From the NCBI GenBank assembly GCA_014218215.1, contig CP043652.1, forward strand, positions 186,001 to 250,000: DNA of 64,000 nt, in the 5' to 3' direction. The notes beneath the pieces were generated by a model. It worked only from the letters and a program-made list of their open reading frames with translations. It was not told where the DNA came from and did not search any database. The translations under genes were made by a program, and so were the position numbers. Shown one piece after another: positions 52,290 through 60,026 of this stretch. The number at the start of each line of letters is the position of its first letter. Position 1 is the first letter of the stretch. This DNA comes from Geodermatophilaceae bacterium NBWT11 (lineage in GTDB: Bacteria; Actinomycetota; Actinomycetes; Mycobacteriales; Geodermatophilaceae).

Positions 52290-53023
52290 TGCGGGCCCTG
52301 CTGCCACCGGCGGCAGGGCTGCTGGACGCTGCCACGCTCGCCGAGACCTACCGCCCCCCGCCCGGCCGACACGTCCGGGCGGGGTTCGTGGCGGCCCTGG
52401 ACGGCGCCACGAGCGTCGACGGGCTCAGCAGCGGGCTGGGCTCGGCCGCGGACAAGGCGGTCTTCCGGGTGCTGCGGGCCTGGGCGGACGCCGTCCTGGT
52501 CGGCCGGGGCACCGCGGCCGCCGAGGGCTACCGGCCGCTCACCCCCGACTCCCCGGTCGGCCGCATCCGCGCCGAGCTGGGCCGGTCGGCGACGGCCCCC
52601 GTGGTCGTGGTGTCGAGGCACGCCTCGCTGCTGCCGACCGACCGGCTGGTGACCGACGCCGTCTCCCCCACCCACCTGGTCACCTGCGCCGCGAGCGACC
52701 CCGGCCGACGGGCCGTGCTGACGGCGGCCGGGGTGCAGGTGCTGGTCTGCGGCGACGACGACGTCGACCTGCCCGCCGCCCTGGACGCCCTCGCCGAACG
52801 CGGCCTCACCCACGTGCTCTGCGAGGGCGGCCCCACGCTGTTCGGTTCCGCCGTGGCCGCCGGCGTGGTCGACGAGCTGTGCCTGACGATCGCCCCCCTG
52901 TTGGTCGGCGGCGCCCCTGGGCTGCTGGGCGGGCACGGGCTGCCCGACCCGGCCCGAGCCCAGCTGATCCACCTCCTGGAGGAGGACGGCGCCGTCTTCG
53001 GGCGGTACGTGTTGAACAGCTGA
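52289..53023 (+). CDS. RibD C-terminal-like pyrimidine reductase
   Basis: 244 residues. Dihydrofolate-reductase-fold protein related to the RibD reductase domain. AGFVAALDGATSVDG at the start, ADAVLVGRGTAAAEGYRPL in the middle and VLCEGGPTLFGSAVAAGVVDEL near the end are the family pattern for NADPH and substrate binding. There is no deaminase domain and no other riboflavin gene nearby, so the substrate is uncertain. The ATG overlaps the treZ stop, so it is co-expressed with trehalose synthesis; the reason is unclear. Confidence 0.87.
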   Translation: MRALLPPAAGLLDAATLAETYRPPPGRHVRAGFVAALDGATSVDGLSSGLGSAADKAVFRVLRAWADAVLVGRGTAAAEGYRPLTPDSPVGRIRAELGRSATAPVVVVSRHASLLPTDRLVTDAVSPTHLVTCAASDPGRRAVLTAAGVQVLVCGDDDVDLPAALDALAERGLTHVLCEGGPTLFGSAVAAGVVDELCLTIAPLLVGGAPGLLGGHGLPDPARAQLIHLLEEDGAVFGRYVLNS

Positions 53024-53027
53024 GATG

Positions 53028-53066
53028 GTCAACGGGCGGCCATACGAGCCCCGGCCGCCCGTTGAC
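53028..53066. terminator. Convergent terminator after the RibD-like gene
   Basis: A perfect 14-bp inverted repeat (53028-53041 / 53053-53066) with an 11-base loop, between the RibD-like gene and the convergent TasA-like gene. Confidence 0.75.
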
Positions 53067-53071
53067 GTTCC

Positions 53072-53695
53072 TCAGACGCTGGTGTCCTGCGTGAGCTCGA
53101 AGTCGAAACGAAGCTGGATCGAGTCGCTCTGCACCAGGTTGTTCGTCGCTCCCAGTTCGGGGAGGGTCACGGTGATGACTGAGCAGACCGTCGTTCCCGC
53201 TGCGATGGGAGCAAGGCCAGAGCCGGCACTCACCAGCTGCAGGAGGGTCCCCCTGAAGGTGGTGTCGATGGTGGGGGTGTCCTCGTCACACGTCTCGCCG
53301 GCCGCGAGGACGCGGTAACCGCTGGTTGCCTGCAGCTGTCCAGCCAGCTCCCCTGCTCCGGTACCCGCGCACGAGGTGTCGGCACCGATCTCCGGCCCGA
53401 CGCAGCTGTTTTCCTCGTTGCCCTGGAGAACGAGGGTCCCCTTGAGGATGCCGTCGAGATTGCCTGCGTTCTGCACGGGCGTGGCGAACGTGACCGTCTG
53501 GGTCGGGACGATCTGGGACACGTCACCATCTGACGACGCGGACTGTCCGGCGGCGTTCAGGTAAAGCGTGCCGGCTGAAGCCTCGGGGAGCACGGACGAC
53601 TCCTGGTCCGAAAATGCGGCGAACGTGCCGCTGGCGCCGAATGCGACCAGCGCAGCGCCGCCCATGGCGGCCGAGGCGAGAACGATCTTCTTCAC
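53072..53695 (-). CDS. TasA/camelysin-like secreted protein with SipW-class signal peptide
   Basis: 207 residues. The start VKKIVLASAAMGGAALVAFGA continues into GTFAAFSDQESS, the pattern of SipW-dependent signal peptides (as in TasA, TapA and camelysin), and is followed by AGTLYLN as in that family. The mature domain is beta-rich with four cysteines (98, 109, 136, 171), probably two disulphides. A matching SipW-like signal peptidase lies 4 kb away. It may form a surface layer or fibre, which is inference. The GTG at 53695 has AGGAGA 6 bases upstream; the frame is open to 53902 but only as shadow. Confidence 0.8.
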   Translation of the reverse strand: MKKIVLASAAMGGAALVAFGASGTFAAFSDQESSVLPEASAGTLYLNAAGQSASSDGDVSQIVPTQTVTFATPVQNAGNLDGILKGTLVLQGNEENSCVGPEIGADTSCAGTGAGELAGQLQATSGYRVLAAGETCDEDTPTIDTTFRGTLLQLVSAGSGLAPIAAGTTVCSVITVTLPELGATNNLVQSDSIQLRFDFELTQDTSV

Positions 53696-53925
53696 GGTGT
53701 GTCTCCTGACGTGTTCGTCGCTCCGCGACGCCTTCTCGCCGGCCCCTGCCTGGCGAACACGAGGAGGCTCTCCGAAGGCGGAGGGGCCCCACATCGTCAC
53801 TTCTGTTGATCTGCGACAGACGTGGCCGCGTGTCGTGACGGAACCGTTCAGTTTCGTGACTCTCAGGTCATGGACTGACACCCGTTCGTGTGATGTCGTC
53901 ACTGGCGACCACGGGGGGTCACTCG
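53696..53925. promoter_or_regulatory. Divergent regulatory region with TCGTGAC repeats
   Basis: The 230 bases between the TasA-like gene and the kinase are less GC-rich than the genes around them. TCGTGAC occurs at 53833-53839 and 53854-53860, 21 bases (about two helical turns) apart, and TCGTCAC occurs at about 53794-53800 and 53896-53902. They may be operator sites of the adjacent NarL-type regulator; no clear -35/-10 pair was assigned. Confidence 0.35.
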
Positions 53926-55449
53926 ATGCACGTACGTCAGGGGTCGGTCGTCGGCTCCCAGCAGTCCACGCGACACCAGGTCCTCGACCGGTTCGGCCGG
54001 GTCCTGTCCAGCCCCGCCACTGGGTTCGTGGCTCTCGGCGTCGTCGTCGTGGTCGTCTCGCCGGGGACCGACCGCCACCAGCTGCTCGAGGTCGCTGCCG
54101 CGCTGGCCTTCCTGGCCGCTGGCGCCGGCCACCTCCTTCGCGGTCGGGTCACCGGGAACCTGACCAGCACGCGGCTCGGCCTGGCGCTGGCGACGCTCGG
54201 GCTGCAGCTGCCTGCCTCGTTCGCGGTGCTCGTCCTGCTCGACGCACAGGGTGCCGTCCTGGCACGAGGTGTGCACGCTGCCGCCTACGCCACGGCCGCC
54301 GTCCTCGCCCTGCGCGCCGCCGTCCCCCACGTCCGGCGCTGGCTGGCCCGGACACTGGTGGGCTCGGTGGTGGCGGCGGGGACCGTCCTCACCGGACTGC
54401 TGGCTGCCCCGGACCCGGCCACGGTGCGCGCGGCTCTCGCCCTCGGCTTCCTGGGCGCCTCGGGGCTGTGGGCCGGTGTGGCTGTGGTCGCCGCGAGGGT
54501 CGACCCGCTCGGCGACCGGGGCCGCGCGTCATCGAGGGCCATCGCCGCCATGGCCGCCCTCGTCGCTGCGTCCACGACCGGCGCGGCGGTCGCACAGCTC
54601 GGGGACGGCGGTGGGGCGGTGCCCGCCGGTCTCGTGGACGGCGCTCTCCTGACTGCCGGCGTCATCGCAGCTGTCGGCGCTGCCCGCCGCATCACCGACT
54701 CCCTGGACGGACAGGAGCGGTACGTCGCCGCGCTCATCGAGCAGCTGGCCCACCACGAGCTGCAGCTGCAGCAGACGCGGGGTTGCCTGCACGACGCCCG
54801 AGCGGCCCTCGCCGGGATCCAGGCGGGGGCCTCGGCCGCCCACCACCCCAGCGTGCGGGCGGACCCGGTCCGGCGCGAGCAGTTGGAGCGTGCGACGACG
54901 GCCGAGATGGCCCGACTGCAACGCCTGCTGCGCATGCCCGAGCGGACGCCGGTCATCGCCGACGTCGATCTCGACGTCCTCTTGGACAGCCTCGTGGCCG
55001 TCCACCGGGAACGCGGCCTCCGCATCCGGTGGAGTGGGACCGGCCAGACGCCCGTCCGCGCCGACGGGGACGCGCTCGCCGTCATCGTGGGCAACCTGCT
55101 GGGCAACGCCCTCGTCCACGCCGCGGACAGCGTCGTCGACCTCGAGGTCACCGTCGGAAACGAGCTGACCGTCTCGGTCACCGACGACGGCCCCGGGTTG
55201 AGCGACCTGCAGCGGCACAGTGTCTTCGAGGCCGGGGCACGCCGGGACGGGAGCCCGGGTGAGGGCATCGGCCTCGCTCTCTCCCGCGACCTGGCCCGGC
55301 GACACGGCGGGGACCTCGTCGCCCGACCCGCGGCGGAGGGTGCCCACTTCCGTCTGACCCTGCCGGTCACGCCCGTCGCACCGTGCGACGTCCGGTCTCC
55401 CGGCTCCGAGGGCTCCTCACCGCTGCACGGTCTCCGGCTCGCCGGGTGA
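53926..55449 (+). CDS. Membrane histidine kinase (NarL-type system)
   Basis: 507 residues. The N-terminal half has about seven or eight hydrophobic helices (30-250) and no large outer domain, so it probably senses within the membrane. A short coiled region and an atypical H-box LHDARAALAG (His289) come next, then a HATPase domain with GNLLGNALVHAA (N-box), VTDDGPGLS and GEGIGLALSRDLARRHGG. The ATG at 53926 has a GGGGGG site 7 bases upstream; in-frame starts at 53890 and 53893 lack one. The response-regulator gene overlaps its stop. Confidence 0.85.
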   Translation: MHVRQGSVVGSQQSTRHQVLDRFGRVLSSPATGFVALGVVVVVVSPGTDRHQLLEVAAALAFLAAGAGHLLRGRVTGNLTSTRLGLALATLGLQLPASFAVLVLLDAQGAVLARGVHAAAYATAAVLALRAAVPHVRRWLARTLVGSVVAAGTVLTGLLAAPDPATVRAALALGFLGASGLWAGVAVVAARVDPLGDRGRASSRAIAAMAALVAASTTGAAVAQLGDGGGAVPAGLVDGALLTAGVIAAVGAARRITDSLDGQERYVAALIEQLAHHELQLQQTRGCLHDARAALAGIQAGASAAHHPSVRADPVRREQLERATTAEMARLQRLLRMPERTPVIADVDLDVLLDSLVAVHRERGLRIRWSGTGQTPVRADGDALAVIVGNLLGNALVHAADSVVDLEVTVGNELTVSVTDDGPGLSDLQRHSVFEAGARRDGSPGEGIGLALSRDLARRHGGDLVARPAAEGAHFRLTLPVTPVAPCDVRSPGSEGSSPLHGLRLAG

Positions 55450-56120
55450 ACGGTGCGGTCCTCGTGGTGGACGACCACGTCCTCTTCGCGCAGGCCGTGG
55501 CCCTGGCACTCGAGTCCCGCGGGTCCTCTCCGGTGCTCGTGTCGCCGCGGTCCGCCGCGCAGGTGGTGGACGCCTGCGGTCGAGCAGCCCCGGCCGTCGT
55601 CCTGTTGGACCTGCGCTTGGGCACGGGTGAGGACGGCGAGCACCTGGACGGTCTGGACCTGGTCGCAGAGGTGGCGTCCACCGGGTGTCGGGTGATCGTC
55701 CTGACCGGTGAGCAGGGGGACCACGTCTGGGGCACGGCCCTCGAACGAGGGGCGGTCGCCGTCCTGCCCAAGGACGTCGACCTCGACGTCCTCGCCGCGA
55801 CCGTCGAAATGGTTCAGCGGGGCGACGTCGTCACCGACCCCGGTCGACGACACCAGCTCATCGCGGCCGCCCGACGGGTGAGGGGTGATCGGGCCGCTCA
55901 GCTGGCCGCGTTCAGCCAGCTGAGCCCGAGGGAGGCCCAGGTGCTCCGGTTGCTCGCCGCCGGCCAGGCCGCCGGCTCGATAGCGAGGACGGCGCACGTC
56001 AGCGAGGCGACGGTCCGCACGCAGATCCGGGCAGTGCTCACCAAGCTGGGCGTGCAGTCCCAGTTGCAGGCGGTGGCCGTGGCTCGTCGCGCAGGTTGGC
56101 TGGAGGACACGGGTCCCTGA
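55446..56120 (+). CDS. NarL/LuxR-family response regulator
   Basis: 224 residues. The receiver has Asp9-Asp10, phospho-acceptor Asp55 (VVLLDLRLG), Thr87 and Lys109 (VLPKD). The C-terminal LuxR-type HTH is at about 157-218 with LSPREAQVLRLLAAGQAAGSIA and VSEATVRTQIRAVLTKLGV. The GTG at 55446 overlaps the kinase stop (GTGA) and gives the proper receiver start VNGAVLVVDDH; an earlier in-frame start at 55383 would add 21 unrelated residues. It is the probable regulator of the surrounding SipW/TasA-like genes (inference from position). Confidence 0.93.
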   Translation: MNGAVLVVDDHVLFAQAVALALESRGSSPVLVSPRSAAQVVDACGRAAPAVVLLDLRLGTGEDGEHLDGLDLVAEVASTGCRVIVLTGEQGDHVWGTALERGAVAVLPKDVDLDVLAATVEMVQRGDVVTDPGRRHQLIAAARRVRGDRAAQLAAFSQLSPREAQVLRLLAAGQAAGSIARTAHVSEATVRTQIRAVLTKLGVQSQLQAVAVARRAGWLEDTGP

Positions 56121-56123
56121 CCA

Positions 56124-56990
56124 TCAGCCGCCGGCCGGGAGCGTGGTGGCTCCGGACTCCGTGCTGATCGGCGCGTCCGTGGGGGGTCCGTCGGACGACG
56201 GCGCCTCGGCGGGGACCGGTGTCGAGGCCGCCGGGGCCGCGGGCGCCACGGTGGGTGGAGCAGGTGTGCTCGTCGTGGCCGACGGGCTGCTGGCGGTGGG
56301 TGAGGCGGTGGCGGGCGCCTCCGCCACAGGCTCCGCAGGCTCCTGGGTCGAGGGGTCCTCGTCCTCCACGACGGACGTGGGCGGCAGCTCGGTCTGCGGC
56401 AGCACCACCGGACCCCCGGCCGGAGGCGGGAGGAGTGCCGGGGGGAGCACCCCGACGGGGACGTCCAAGCGGCCGGAGAAGCCCCCGCCCTCCTGGGTCA
56501 CCACCAGCTGGACCCGGCCCTCCCAGGCGGCTCCGTCAGAGGCTCCGGCCCACCGCACCACGACGGTCGACACCGCCGCGCCGGTGCCCCGCGCGATCGG
56601 GGCCTCGGAACCGCACGCCGCCACCGTGCGGGATGCAGCCCCGCTGGCCTCGATGGAGAGGCTGTTCCCGGCCAGGGGCCCGCAGTCGGCATCCGTGTCC
56701 CCGACCGGGAGCACCCGGGCAGTCAGCACCCACGACGTCTCGCGTGAGGTCGAGATGCTCACCAGCACCTCGGCACCGGCGTCGGGCCCGACGAGGGCCA
56801 CCGGGTCCTGCGACTCCCCCGGGGGGAGGACCCTCGTCAACCACAGGGTCCCCGCCCCCGCATCGGCGGTGACGGCCGCACTGTCACTGAGCAGGGCGAA
56901 CGTACCCAGATGACCGGAACCAGCCCCGGCCCAACCACCACACAGCGCGCACGCCAGGACGGCCACCAGCACGGAGCGACGCCTGGTCAT
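56124..56990 (-). CDS. Secreted Pro/Thr-rich protein with SipW-class signal peptide
   Basis: 288 residues. The N-terminus (SVLVAVLACALCGGWAGAGSG) ends in GTFALLSDSAAV and continues AGAGTLWL, mirroring the TasA-like protein upstream. A beta-rich domain of about 130 residues with two cysteines (103, 126) follows, then a long disordered Pro/Ala/Thr/Ser tail (about 185-288) ending TTLPAGG with no hydrophobic segment or basic tail. Probably exported by the SipW-like peptidase and associated with the surface. The ATG overlaps the stop of the next upstream gene (ATGA), so the two are co-translated. Confidence 0.75.
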   Translation of the reverse strand: MTRRRSVLVAVLACALCGGWAGAGSGHLGTFALLSDSAAVTADAGAGTLWLTRVLPPGESQDPVALVGPDAGAEVLVSISTSRETSWVLTARVLPVGDTDADCGPLAGNSLSIEASGAASRTVAACGSEAPIARGTGAAVSTVVVRWAGASDGAAWEGRVQLVVTQEGGGFSGRLDVPVGVLPPALLPPPAGGPVVLPQTELPPTSVVEDEDPSTQEPAEPVAEAPATASPTASSPSATTSTPAPPTVAPAAPAASTPVPAEAPSSDGPPTDAPISTESGATTLPAGG

Positions 56991-57892
56991 CGGACCTGGT
57001 CCTGACGCCGGCGCCGGACCAGGACGAACAAGGCCCAGAACAGGACAGATGCGCCCACGAAGATTGCTCCCAGGGCGAGTGGGGCGTCGAACACCGATCC
57101 GGCCGCCGTGGCCCGCACAACACCGTCATCGCCGCCGACAGCCACGTCGACCGTCGCGGTCCCCACGGTGTCCGGCCCCGGGGCCACCAGCGCGGCGGCG
57201 TCGGCAGGGCGCGCCGTCGACGAGCCGCGGTCCACCCCCTGGGTGCCGGCTGCCACCGGAGCGGCACCCAGGTCGACCTGCGAGGTGGTCCCGCCGGCCC
57301 CGGCTGCCACGTCCGGTCGGTCGCTCTCCGCCGGCAGCGACTCCCCACCCAGCGCGCCACCGGGGCCCGAGGCGACCAGCCCGAGGCTGAGAGCCAACGT
57401 GTCCGACTGCGCGAGGTCGTCGTCCTCGCCGTCGGGGAAGGCGAACGTGAGGACGAGACACTCGGGACCGGCGACATCGACGCGCGCGACCCGTCCGCCA
57501 CCGAGGTCCAGGGCGGCGGGATCGGACAGGGCCCGGCACGAGCCTGCCTCGTACCGCCCCGCCTCCGCGGTGACCTCCACCTGGGCGGCCAGCTCGCCGC
57601 CGTCCGCGGTGCACGTGGTGTCGCCGGCGGCCACCTCCGGCGCCAGACAGCCGTTCTCGCCCTGGTCCAGGGCGAGCACGGTCACCCCCAGGCGGTCGGC
57701 CTGCCCGGCCCACGACGCGGGCAGTGACACCGTGGTCGACCAGCTGCCCCCGGGTGCGAGCCCGTCCTCGGCATGCGCGACTCCCACCGGGAGACCCGCG
57801 ACTGCAGCGGCGAGCGCCAGGCCACCCAGGGCACGGCTCACGGGGGGTCGGCGCACCCCGTCATCGTGCGGGCGCCCGAGGGGGCCGGGCAT
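56987..57892 (-). CDS. Membrane-anchored surface protein related to the TasA-like protein
   Basis: 301 residues. A conventional signal peptide (ends GVAHA) replaces the SipW type. The outer domain repeats landmarks of the TasA-like protein at 53072: GENGCLAPEVAAGDTTC versus EENSCVGPEIGADTSC, GELAAQV versus GELAGQL, and DDLAQSDTLALSL versus NNLVQSDSIQLRF, with four cysteines at 82, 94, 119 and 145. A Ser/Ala-rich linker leads to one helix (about 268-292) and RRRR, so the C-terminus is anchored. The start is ATG at 57892; a GTG 12 codons later is possible. It is coupled to the gene downstream. Confidence 0.72.
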   Translation of the reverse strand: MPGPLGRPHDDGVRRPPVSRALGGLALAAAVAGLPVGVAHAEDGLAPGGSWSTTVSLPASWAGQADRLGVTVLALDQGENGCLAPEVAAGDTTCTADGGELAAQVEVTAEAGRYEAGSCRALSDPAALDLGGGRVARVDVAGPECLVLTFAFPDGEDDDLAQSDTLALSLGLVASGPGGALGGESLPAESDRPDVAAGAGGTTSQVDLGAAPVAAGTQGVDRGSSTARPADAAALVAPGPDTVGTATVDVAVGGDDGVVRATAAGSVFDAPLALGAIFVGASVLFWALFVLVRRRRQDQVR

Positions 57893-57942
57893 CGTCTGTT
57901 CTGATGATGCCGCGGGGGTGACGGCGTCCCCAGGATGGGCGG

Positions 57943-58542
57943 GTGCCCACTCTCGTGCGCAGGATCCGCCAGTTCACCGCCTGGTCGTTGGGGCTCGTCC
58001 TCCTCGGCACCACGGCCGTGGCTCTGACGGTCGCGCTGTTCCCGCGGGTCACCGACGGTCAGGCTCTCGCCGTGTTGAGCGGGAGCATGACCCCGGCCAT
58101 GCCGGTGGGGGCCATGGTCTTCACCCAGCCGGTCGACACCGATGACGTGTCCGTGGGGGACGTGCTCACGTTCGTACGACCGGGCGGCTCGGGTGAGCTG
58201 GTCACCCACCGGGTCATCGCCGTGGACACGTCGGGTCGCGAACCGCTCTTCAGCACGCAGGGCGACGCGAACGACGTCGCCGATCTGGACCCGGTGCCGG
58301 CGGCAGCCGTGGTGGGGGAACCACGGTGGGTCGTCCCCGAGTTGGGCCGTTGGGCAGCCGTCCTGCACAGTCCTCGTGGCCTGGGGGCCCTCGTCCTCAT
58401 GGTCTGCGCCGTCGTGGCGACGGCACCTTCCTCACGAGTGGATGCGCGAGGGCCGGAAGCACGGGGAGACGTGGACCCACCCTCCGGTGTCGAGCCCGTC
58501 GAGGCTGATGCGGGCGGATCCCGCACCCTGCGCCCTGTCTGA
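57943..58542 (+). CDS. sipW: SipW-like (ER-type) signal peptidase I
   Basis: 199 residues. The N-terminal helix is at about 12-35. The catalytic Ser48 lies in LSGSMTPAM; the base is His89 in THRVIAVD instead of Lys, and Asp108 lies in TQGDAN, the Ser-His-Asp arrangement of SipW and eukaryotic/archaeal signal peptidases. A C-terminal helix is at about 142-162. It presumably cleaves the two SipW-class precursors encoded nearby. The GTG start follows an AGGATGGG site. It is divergent from the surface-protein pair by 50 bases. Confidence 0.9.
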   Translation: MPTLVRRIRQFTAWSLGLVLLGTTAVALTVALFPRVTDGQALAVLSGSMTPAMPVGAMVFTQPVDTDDVSVGDVLTFVRPGGSGELVTHRVIAVDTSGREPLFSTQGDANDVADLDPVPAAAVVGEPRWVVPELGRWAAVLHSPRGLGALVLMVCAVVATAPSSRVDARGPEARGDVDPPSGVEPVEADAGGSRTLRPV

Positions 58543-58771
58543 GCTCCGCCACCTCTGACCACGGCGGTCCTCGTGTCCCACGGGAACCGGGCACCGGTGC
58601 TGGCTGGACCTGCGGCGGCCAGCGAGCTGTGCGACCCAACACGGCGCTGCTCGACGGCCTCGCCGTCGGCCGGCCTACCGCCCGACCTGAACCGGACTCA
58701 TCGCCACGCCCCCGGGGCCGACATCAGGCCCACCGGAGTCCCCACCCCAGCAGGTCGCCGAGCACACCGCG
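58543..58771. other. Non-coding stretch between two convergent genes
   Basis: 229 bases between the end of the signal peptidase gene and the end of the membrane protein gene on the other strand. No convincing gene, strong hairpin or repeat was seen. Confidence 0.4.
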
Positions 58772-59827
58772 TCAGGGGCCCTCCACCGGGTCGAGGTCCA
58801 CCGGAGCCGATGTCTCCGCGGGTGGGGGTGTCGTCGGCGGCGTCTCCGTCTCGGTGGGCGGCTCGGACGACGACGGAGGGGACGTCGCCGGGGGCGATGT
58901 CGGGGGTCGCGTCGTGGGCGCGGGGCTGGACGGGACGCCGGTCGAGCCCCCGGTCGACGACCCCCCTGCCGTCGGCCCACCGCCGGTCGGAGACGACGGC
59001 CGCTGGGTCGAACCGGTCGGGACGGGACCCCCGCCGGACGGGCGCGCCGTCGTCGCCGGGGAGTCCGTGGTTCCGGACGAAGGCGGCCGGGACGTGGTGG
59101 TCGTGCGGTCAGCCGACGGTGCGGTCGCGGTCACGGCACTCGAGGGCGGCAGCAGCACGGTCGGGTCCTCCACCACGACGCTCCCCTCGCCGGTCAGCGA
59201 CATCGCCACGTCCTGCGCCACGGCGCCGGCACCCGCGCCGAGCGTCAGGACCATGCGGCCGGTCCACTGCGCGGGCCCGGTCTGACCCGCGGCCGGGACC
59301 GCGCTGAGGGTGAAGGAGGCGACGGGCTCGTCGGGGCTGAGCTCGGCCACCTCCCAGTCGTCGGTCGCCGCGGCGCAGGCCGACGCGCTGCGGGGCACGG
59401 CGCCGGCCGAGCCGGTGGTGACGACCAGGTCCACCGCGGGCAGCTCCGCGCAGGGTGCCTCCAGGCCGATGGAGAGCACGCCGGCTGCCTCACCCTCCAG
59501 CCGGACGACGAAGGGGGCACCGGTCTGCGCGCTGCCGACCGCTGCCACGCCCGCGCCGCTGAGCGCGGTGGACGTCACGACCAGGCGAGGTGCGTCGGTG
59601 GAGTCGGAGGAGGGCGCGGTGACGAGGAAGAGGACACCGACGGCACCGACGACGACGGCCGGGACGATGAGCACGGGGATGGTCCGGCGGAAGCCGAGGC
59701 CCCGGATGCCGTCCACGACGCGACCGGGGAGGCTGCGGCTGCGGTCCACCGGTCGGGGTCCGACGAGCGGGCGCCGCGCCGGCTCGGCGGCCGAGGGGTC
59801 CCAGGCAGCCCAGTGTTCGTCTGTCAT
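58772..59827 (-). CDS. Single-pass surface protein with Thr/Pro/Ser-rich tail
   Basis: 351 residues. A cytosolic N-terminus (about 48 residues), one helix (about 49-69), an outer beta-rich domain with cysteines 126 and 151, then a long Thr/Pro/Ser/Gly tail from about 220. The outer domain resembles that of the secreted protein at 56124 in Cys spacing and in the strand pattern ending QWTGRMVLTLG versus AWEGRVQLVVTQ. The ATG at 59827 (MTDEHWAAWDP) is chosen; the frame extends to 59896. Type II topology. It is probably part of the SipW/TasA-like locus; no known domain was recognised. Confidence 0.65.
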   Translation of the reverse strand: MTDEHWAAWDPSAAEPARRPLVGPRPVDRSRSLPGRVVDGIRGLGFRRTIPVLIVPAVVVGAVGVLFLVTAPSSDSTDAPRLVVTSTALSGAGVAAVGSAQTGAPFVVRLEGEAAGVLSIGLEAPCAELPAVDLVVTTGSAGAVPRSASACAAATDDWEVAELSPDEPVASFTLSAVPAAGQTGPAQWTGRMVLTLGAGAGAVAQDVAMSLTGEGSVVVEDPTVLLPPSSAVTATAPSADRTTTTSRPPSSGTTDSPATTARPSGGGPVPTGSTQRPSSPTGGGPTAGGSSTGGSTGVPSSPAPTTRPPTSPPATSPPSSSEPPTETETPPTTPPPAETSAPVDLDPVEGP

Positions 59828-60026
59828 CGTCGTGTCCCCGTCCGCACCGGCTGTTCGTCTGCTACGCCGTACGGGCGTCCCTCCCGAGAGTGACACGCCG
59901 CAGCCCTCTGGTGGTGGTCAGGGCTCCTCCCACCTGTGGACGGGCACGCACAGACGGCAGGCCGCCACCCAGGGTGAGATTCCCGGTGACCCCCCGTGCC
60001 GACCGGCGCACTGCCAGACTGGGCCG

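Follow-up and report, generated by a model that had tools for sequence, protein, structure and literature searches.

The stretch of DNA analysed here, hereafter the window, comprises bases 186001-250000 (64,000 nt) of the single-contig 4.59 Mb genome of Geodermatophilaceae bacterium NBWT11, an actinobacterium of soil close to Klenkia; all coordinates below are positions in this window unless a locus or contig identifier is given. At 53072-59827 it contains a tight cluster of genes whose products probably build a surface protein fibre, attach it to the cell and cap it; such a fibre would be related to the biofilm matrix fibres of Bacillus and governed by a sensor-regulator pair of its own. A gene finder based on codon usage places the genes in the order T1 (-), histidine kinase HK and response regulator RR (+), T2 and T3 (-), signal peptidase SP (+) and T4 (-), see Table 1, and all the parts named in the original prediction for this region are present. 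The module is flanked on one side by what we take to be TreZ and RibD, and on the other by a presumed ligase-like gene, LIG.

Table 1. Genes, operators and promoter elements of the module.
Feature	Position	Strand	Basis
T1: putative TasA-type fibre subunit, 207 amino acids, SipW-type signal	53072..53695	-	TIGR04088, PF12389, fold match
-10-like hexamer of the T1 promoter, GAGCCT (xAxxxT)	53765..53770	-	offset 21 from operator, 11/11 loci
Operator 1 (CATCGTCACTTCTGTTGATC), between T1 and HK	53792..53811		cross-trained profiles
HK: histidine kinase, about seven hydrophobic segments (hydropathy)	53926..55449	+	HATPase_c 1.7e-17
RR: response regulator, receiver and GerE/LuxR DNA-binding domain	55446..56120	+	PF00072, PF00196
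T2: SipW-type signal, T1-like N-terminal segment, small domain, Pro-rich tail	56124..56990	-	hhalign
T3: T1-like domain without N-terminal donor segment, linker, C-terminal strand, transmembrane segment, RRRR tail	56987..57856	-	hhalign, model
-10-like hexamer of the T3-T2 promoter (xAxxxT)	57863..57868	-	offset 21 in 10/11 loci, L043 at 20
Operator 2 (CATCGTCTGTTCTGATGATG), an inverted repeat halfway from T3 to SP	57890..57909		only perfect CATCGTC-N6-GATGATG in the 4.59 Mb genome
-10-like hexamer of the SP promoter, CAGGAT (xAxxxT)	57931..57936	+	offset 20 (7 loci) or 21 (4), 11/11
SP: SipW/SEC11-type signal peptidase, 199 amino acids	57943..58542	+	TIGR02228, SEC11 alignment
T4: T2-like, N-terminal transmembrane segment (hydropathy), Pro-rich tail	58772..59749	-	BLASTP

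The SipW-class signal of T1 is GTFAAFSD, with a predicted cut between GTFA and AFSD. T1 scores 20.2 bits against TIGR04088, the SipW-class signal peptide family (cut-off 19), and 23.5 bits against PF12389, the TasA/camelysin family (cut-off 22.5), the latter match spanning only about the first 75 residues. It is TasA-like only and not an equivalog of the Bacillus protein, as it reaches 21.9 bits in NF046066, where the cut-off is 450. A structure model of T1, based on an alignment of seven sequences and with a mean predicted local distance difference test score (pLDDT) of 71.8, has TasA from B. subtilis as its best PDB matches in Foldseek (5of2, E 2.3e-4; 5of1, E 9.2e-4). Using VIA, the top three entries are all TasA, i.e. 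5of1 (Z 10.8, 2.5 Å over 136 residues), 5of2 (Z 10.3) and the fibre form 8aur (Z 8.0), and the next entries have Z 7.5. As modelled, T1 has the jellyroll fold of TasA. Residues 1-40, including the predicted donor segment, have a pLDDT below 50 in this monomer model, as is compatible with polymerisation through an N-terminal donor strand. In the sequence alignment with 8aur, position 27 of the T1 profile is aligned to the first residue of the fibre chain, and a second collinear piece near the C-terminus (NLVQSD against NKYQGN) is not significant alone.

Eleven loci are compared below, nine from genomes of the family and two further ones from Blastococcus, the window included. Over these loci the mean identity of T1 is 84% in residues 1-30, 28% in residues 31-60 and 32% in residues 61-207, and F28 is invariant in seven sequences. 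Given a cut between GTFA and AF, as in TasA, the P2' residue of T1 is Phe; E. coli LepB cleaves poorly with an aromatic P2', according to the abstract of PMC10269814. The first 30 codons of T1 also keep their synonymous sites, as 4-fold sites coding for the same residue are 75% identical there vs 51% later in the gene. The leader of T1, about 60-70 bases long, contains a conserved stem-loop ahead of the ribosome site, in which one of nine hairpin pairs covaries; leader and first codons are comprised in 53606-53761. No Rfam family was matched within 53000-60000.

SP scores 87.6 bits against TIGR02228 (cut-off 51.85), and in its alignment to human SEC11C/A (E about 1e-10) the blocks containing Ser, His and Asp coincide. 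The motifs SGSM, THR and GDAN are invariant in seven SP sequences, i.e. Ser-His-Asp replaces Ser-Lys, and the predicted His-type, SipW-like peptidase is thereby confirmed. As for T1, the protein is not an equivalog of its Bacillus counterpart SipW (NF046067, 64.7 bits vs a cut-off of 190). Two other SipW-type peptidases were observed. One, at L038:8449-10196 (G000:C1:1934448-1936195), comes with a TasA-like protein of its own and a small protein that is secreted, next to a kinase and an OmpR-looking regulator; TasA-like genes similar to the one in L038 are found in L047, L054 and L056. The other, at L037:8383-10486 (G000:C1:24382-26485), is a peptidase domain fused to a long C-terminal part, LamG-like in appearance, and is preceded by a small exported protein.

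T3 is a paralogue of T1. It is aligned by hhalign to residues 61-199 of T1 (E 4.8e-12), shares with it the cysteines, three of four being invariant in both alignments, and the QSD signature, and lacks the first ~34 mature residues of T1. Since T3 would have the fold of T1 without the donor segment, it should be able to accept a strand but not to donate one. Its signal peptide looks ordinary by eye, not SipW-type, and signal and domain are about equally conserved (50% and 46% identity). Thereafter follow a low-complexity linker, a predicted C-terminal strand (residues 225-236 of the modelled 284-residue form), a membrane helix and the RRRR end. A sortase signal, LPxT[GA], is absent from the ten T3 proteins counted, the Goekera row being left out as it is a mis-assigned T1. 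As a candidate for a displaced first strand of T1, the C-terminal strand ranks 5 of 2616 windows, tied with the linker of T3. The matches of the T3 model that include this strand are CfaE (Z 6.6), EcpA (6.0), MyfA (5.9) and FimA (5.7), pilins that are partly self-complemented or donor-strand-complemented. Unrelated proteins are interspersed among them and all matches have Z of at most 6.6, below the noise level of 8, so the likeness to pilins is a lead only. That T3 is the membrane anchor of the fibre is a reading that we favour by a little.

T2 and T3 overlap by 4 bp, with T3 upstream. The signal of T2 is GTFALLSD, and the prediction of two proteins with GTFAxxSD signals thus holds for T1 and T2. 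T2 has no family match of its own, but hhalign aligns it to residues 19-93 of the T1 profile (E 3e-6), i.e. to the signal and first strand only. It shares with TapA a donor-like N-terminus behind a SipW-class signal, followed here by a tail with 25% Pro. Sequence searches in PDB with T2 and T3 gave no meaningful match, and no TapA chain was among the matches of T2. We propose that T2 works like TapA, with no claim that it belongs to the TapA family. It may be a donor-only initiator or cap, an assignment that we hold to be somewhat less likely than not.

The two further related surface proteins of the original prediction are T3, as described, and T4, which resembles T2: it matches the T2 proteins of two relatives in BLASTP (E 1.1e-6 and 3.2e-5). 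T4 was put forward as part of the locus, and it is not in the conserved core, as it is found in none of the ten other related loci and is present in this genome only; we have therefore rejected it from the conserved set. No operator precedes T4, and the nearest operator-like match, with three mismatches, is inside the gene.

The kinase and regulator genes overlap by 4 bp. The sensor part of HK is a polytopic membrane domain, which is missing in Goekera, and a CLHDAR box is invariant in seven HK sequences. HATPase_c is its sole Pfam report up to E 1, and no match to HisKA_3 was found. RR is above the Pfam cut-offs for both PF00072 (1.9e-13) and PF00196 (3.6e-14), i.e. it has the NarL/FixJ layout. 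The predicted NarL-type two-component system is thus real as a kinase and a LuxR-type regulator, but since HK contains HATPase_c and no HisKA_3, the term NarL-type applies to RR only.

Both divergent intergenic regions, T1/HK and T3/SP, contain an element of about 20 bp of the form CATCGTC-N6-GATGATG or a near form. When two mismatches to the perfect form are allowed, the genome contains 58 further matches, operator 1 among them, so the simple pattern is insufficient to single out operator 1. Profiles trained on one region do find the element in the other. A profile of the T3/SP sites of the other ten loci ranks the T1/HK site 2 or 3 in all eleven loci, among the positions of 16.6 to 64 kb; only the T3/SP site itself outscores it, with a gap of 4.1 to 15.3 bits down to the best unrelated position. 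Training in the opposite direction ranks the T3/SP site 1 or 2 in 11/11. The consensus derived from the cross-trained sites, CATCGTCNNWWYYGNNGAT, has 12 exact matches in 18 genomes, all within the locus. These are found in 7 of the 9 genomes with the module, while G005 has one mismatch at the locus and Goekera has no match, and the nine module-free genomes contain no exact match. Matches with one mismatch elsewhere, often one recurring sequence, exist in 7/9 genomes with the module and in 8/9 without it.

The operators are also at a fixed distance from -10-like hexamers and GTG starts. The -10-like hexamers of the T1, T3-T2 and SP promoters (Table 1) follow the pattern xAxxxT, which at this GC content is expected by chance with a frequency of 0.017 per site. 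In Goekera, a short T2-like gene takes the T3 side in these counts. Towards HK, no offset of xAxxxT reached four of the eleven loci. On the SP side, all eleven loci have a GTG that opens a reading frame 32-33 bp away from the operator; on the T3 side the distance is 32-34 bp, and 10/11 loci have such a GTG (33 bp from operator 2 for T3 in the window). Other possible starts are present in most. With this GTG as +1, the operator covers -34 to -53, with its centre at -43.5, and the hexamer -12 to -7. A centre at about -43.5 is a class II position for NarL/FixJ-type activators, and leaderless starts occur in actinobacteria. The geometry is in keeping with a class II activator, and the T3 and SP messages are probably leaderless. 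It also makes 57856 and 57943 the likely starts of T3 and SP, a correction of these two start codons.

The distribution of the module was studied in 112 genomes of the family, 96 of which have a completeness of 90% or more and a contamination of 5% or less. T1 (E<1e-40) and HK (E<1e-100) are found in the same nine genomes and are always adjacent, and T3 is present in eight of the nine. Seven of these genomes supplied the alignments, while G074 and G093 did not, so what is informative is the absence elsewhere and the joint matches in G074 and G093. At E<1e-40, HK is found in 7 of 397 genomes of the order, all from this family and without G074 and G093, and in 3 of 394 genomes of the class: its own and two distant ones, G462 and G694. 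Named relatives with the module are Klenkia taihuensis, K. marina, Modestobacter sp. Leaf380, Blastococcus, Trujillonella and Goekera. The scan that yielded the Blastococcus loci relied on patterns of signal peptides, and relatives like G462 would escape it.

T1, HK, RR and SP are found in all eleven loci (the T1 of L057, missed by the gene finder, was added from other scans), and the order T1-HK-RR-T2-T3-SP and the chromosomal place are kept in ten, Goekera lacking T3. A conserved neighbourhood in relatives had been set beforehand as one check on the idea, and it is seen here. In Goekera deserti (L045:5734-9220) T1, RR and SP are kept, T3 and the membrane part of HK are missing, and the module appears to be decaying or simplified. 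All eleven modules lie between the TreZ/RibD side and LIG, with extra genes at one edge in L043, L044, L057, L061, L066 and L067 and without RibD there in K. marina. Trees of the module and of the flanks, compared by shared splits, have three splits in common (the Klenkia group; Klenkia + Goekera; the four Blastococcus/Trujillonella loci) and disagree within the Klenkia and Blastococcus groups and on the loci of G074 and G093. The flank tree covers ten loci, as RibD of K. marina was not found, and TreZ of Trujillonella is a 91-residue fragment. Transfer to random sites as the cause of the patchy spread is rejected, given the same place in 11/11 loci and the three shared splits, and so is a chance cluster, given the joint presence of T1 and HK in 9/112 genomes, always adjacent, and the synteny in eleven loci. 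In the LIG regions of twelve module-free genomes, RibD and LIG are 8 bp apart in G001, from the same genus; in the others, other genes are present or RibD is absent there. The place between RibD and LIG is a variable spot, with pairs of toxin-antitoxin-like appearance in some relatives (L078:767-1501, L083:760-1391, L067:6557-7173).

A distant version of the module exists in G462, from another family of the class that is represented by this one genome in the sample. Here the genes form one row on one strand, HK-RR-T1-SP-T3-presumed T2. The best BLASTP E-values to the Geodermatophilaceae proteins are 1e-28 for HK, 2e-42 for RR, 2e-19 for T1, 1e-38 for SP and 2e-15 for T3, while the presumed T2 has no BLASTP match to Geodermatophilaceae T2. 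T1 of G462 passes TIGR04088 and PF12389 (24.1 bits), and its SP passes TIGR02228; this T1 alone gave no match in a PDB sequence search. At the C-terminus of the T3 protein, LPRTG is followed by a hydrophobic stretch and then a basic tail, judged by eye and with no Pfam match. The presumed T2 (L091:3892-5370) has a SipW-like start, with 15.3 bits in TIGR04088, below the cut-off of 19, and calcium-binding RTX repeats (PF00353, E 5e-21). The LPRTG end and the RTX tail suggest that the anchor may be either a transmembrane helix or a wall-sorting signal and that the tail of T2 seems exchangeable. All three operator profiles have their best match within 18 kb at a position 111 bp upstream of T1 (15.3, 14.7 and 17.9 bits, vs 10.5, 11.0 and 11.4 for the next), and a GAGTGT hexamer (xAxxxT) is at offset 20. 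In G694, which has a related kinase and regulators, there is no SipW-type peptidase in the 18 kb read. At L092:6962-10181 a relative of HK, with an operator-like site of 13.0 bits upstream, and two LuxR-type regulators adjoin a cluster that looks like sugar transferases and glycosyltransferases.

From these observations we infer the following scheme. A signal would be sensed by the polytopic HK, which would phosphorylate RR. Phosphorylated RR would bind the operator in both divergent regions and activate, rather than repress, the T1, T3-T2 and SP promoters. SP, a SEC11-type peptidase, would remove the SipW-type signals from T1 and T2, cutting directly ahead of a hydrophobic N-terminus (A-F in T1). 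Mature T1 would then polymerise as TasA does, by donor-strand exchange, its N-terminal strand filling the groove of the next T1. T3 would only accept a strand and, by its C-terminal membrane segment, fix the fibre to the cell. T2, in which a donor-like N-terminus precedes a different domain and a variable tail, would only donate and, like TapA, would serve to initiate or cap the fibre. The structure may serve in biofilms. We consider a TasA-type fibre system with a dedicated peptidase and regulator, assembled by this donor-strand scheme, to be quite likely. The SipW/TasA identity, the dedicated two-component system and the idea of an assembled structure in the original prediction are supported by the fold, the synteny and the shared operator, the fibre itself being a deduction from them. 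More tentatively, and with more doubt than belief, it can be speculated that the subunits follow a donor-strand grammar, in which T1 both donates and accepts, T3 is an acceptor fixed to the envelope and T2 is a donor with a variable tail, so that their ratio would set start, length and anchoring of the fibre. Within that speculation T3 would be closed at rest by its own juxtamembrane strand, and the promoters of the three subunits and of SP would share one operator and geometry.

Several observations weigh against the fibre scheme. By sequence the match of T1 to TasA is weak (8aur has E 0.05 with a profile of seven T1 sequences against PDB), the T3 model matches TasA with Z 5.6, under the noise level of 8, and it has no Foldseek match at E 0.001. 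T2 is without a recognised fold or family, having no NCBIfam or Pfam match, and BLASTP with the T2 of the window detects it in 5 of the 10 other loci, the remaining ones being assigned by place and SipW-type start. The module is missing in 103 of the 112 family genomes, and the version in Goekera does without T3, which is therefore no strict requirement. A comparison of the two promoter regions within each genome alone is weak in several genomes, the number of shuffles (of 60) reaching the observed score being 0, 2, 38, 34, 24, 1, 27, 4, 1, 1 and 5 in the eleven loci, and in three loci the best match is not the operator; for this reason cross-trained profiles were used. Finally, the operator score of 15.3 bits in G462 is barely above the best of seven control loci (14.2 bits in L052; 13.0 in L092), so it is place and spacing, not the score alone, that carry this operator.

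It could also be that there is no fibre and that T1 and T3 are camelysin-like surface or matrix proteins with a role in coat, adhesion or binding, which need a SipW-type peptidase and do not polymerise. A shared jellyroll fold says nothing on function, the identity of mature T1 between relatives is only about 30%, and the tails of T2 and T4 look like stalks spanning the cell wall (25% Pro). Against this, the signal and donor-like start are the most conserved part of T1 (84%), recur in T2 and are missing in T3, a pattern to be expected from strand exchange; much of the 84% may on the other hand be due to the signal and not to the donor strand, as residues 31-60 are only 28% identical. We judge the absence of a fibre to be unlikely. 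The regulatory half of the scheme has its own competitors. Since the distance between GAYGATG and a -10-like hexamer is fixed on three sides, and the HK side, which has no hexamer, carries a degenerate half, the 20-bp element might be a -35-like region of an alternative sigma factor and not a regulator site, operator 2 then being two facing elements. Yet the usual spacing of a -35/-10 pair is shorter than 20-21 bp, TG and GA are retained in 11/11 loci within the distal half of operator 1 though the flank is not kept, and the regulator gene is adjacent in all eleven; we hold a sigma factor for less likely still than the lack of a fibre. Least probable to us is that HK and RR are merely a co-kept neighbour, answering to or regulating something else. 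The kinase of G694 that adjoins a polysaccharide-type cluster, with no SipW-type peptidase in the 18 kb read, and the lack of a -10-like hexamer on the HK side of operator 1 would fit this, but not the joint presence in 9/9 genomes, and again in G462 with another gene order, nor the exact consensus matches confined to the locus.

The donor-strand scheme rests on what is described for TasA. According to the passages considered in PMC9674648 and PMC10151520, the N-terminal strand (28-38) of B. subtilis TasA complements the next subunit, where it displaces a strand with which that subunit had complemented itself, and the N-terminus of TapA resembles this donor strand. Like tapA-sipW-tasA of B. 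subtilis, the present locus has a TasA-fold subunit with a SipW signal and a SipW-type peptidase of its own. T2 is the second protein of SipW type, and its N-terminus is donor-like as in TapA, although T2 is not recognisable as TapA by sequence. Unlike it, the locus has its own HK, RR and operator, where B. subtilis has SinR. T3 has no counterpart in the descriptions given in those passages, where TapA is thought to help anchoring (PMC9674648, PMC10151520). The sipW-bsaABCRSD operon of C. perfringens is similar in having SipW, a polymer-forming TasA-like BsaA and a dedicated BsaR/BsaS pair, and BsaR is reported to bind the sipW promoter (PMC7395162). The likeness of BsaR/BsaS to HK and RR is one of system description, not of sequence comparison. 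C. perfringens belongs to another phylum and has one operon with a readthrough transcript, whereas here there are three promoters in a divergent layout (PMC7395162). TasA/CalY with CapP of Bacillus cereus likewise combines several TasA-type subunits with an assembly helper and no sortase, and in its abstract there is no mention of a paralogue with a membrane anchor or of a two-component system next to the genes (PMC13082335). The bundling pili of archaea are also TasA-like donor-strand fibres, as cited in PMC9674648.

A 2022 survey of Geodermatophilaceae names Tad pili in the passage considered and has zero mentions of SipW and TasA (PMC9686282). No description of such a locus in Geodermatophilaceae was found in the literature, searched mostly without subscription journals. 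The claim that the system is undescribed in this lineage is thus uncontradicted, but a SipW/TasA-like locus with its own two-component system as such is already known from C. perfringens (PMC7395162). What is new is the host group, the candidate anchored paralogue without a donor segment and the three promoters with one operator type.

TasA fibres are known from Bacillus and related ones from archaea, and in the parts of the cited papers considered here only TapA is discussed as a possible anchor. The locus offers a conserved candidate anchor with its own membrane segment, as well as a candidate initiator. Exact matches to the consensus site of the presumed regulator are confined to the fibre genes. 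The adhesion structures named for this family in the survey passage considered are Tad pili (PMC9686282). Together this makes a precise testable set of one operator, three promoters, three subunits and one peptidase, for what may be a TasA-type fibre of Geodermatophilaceae.

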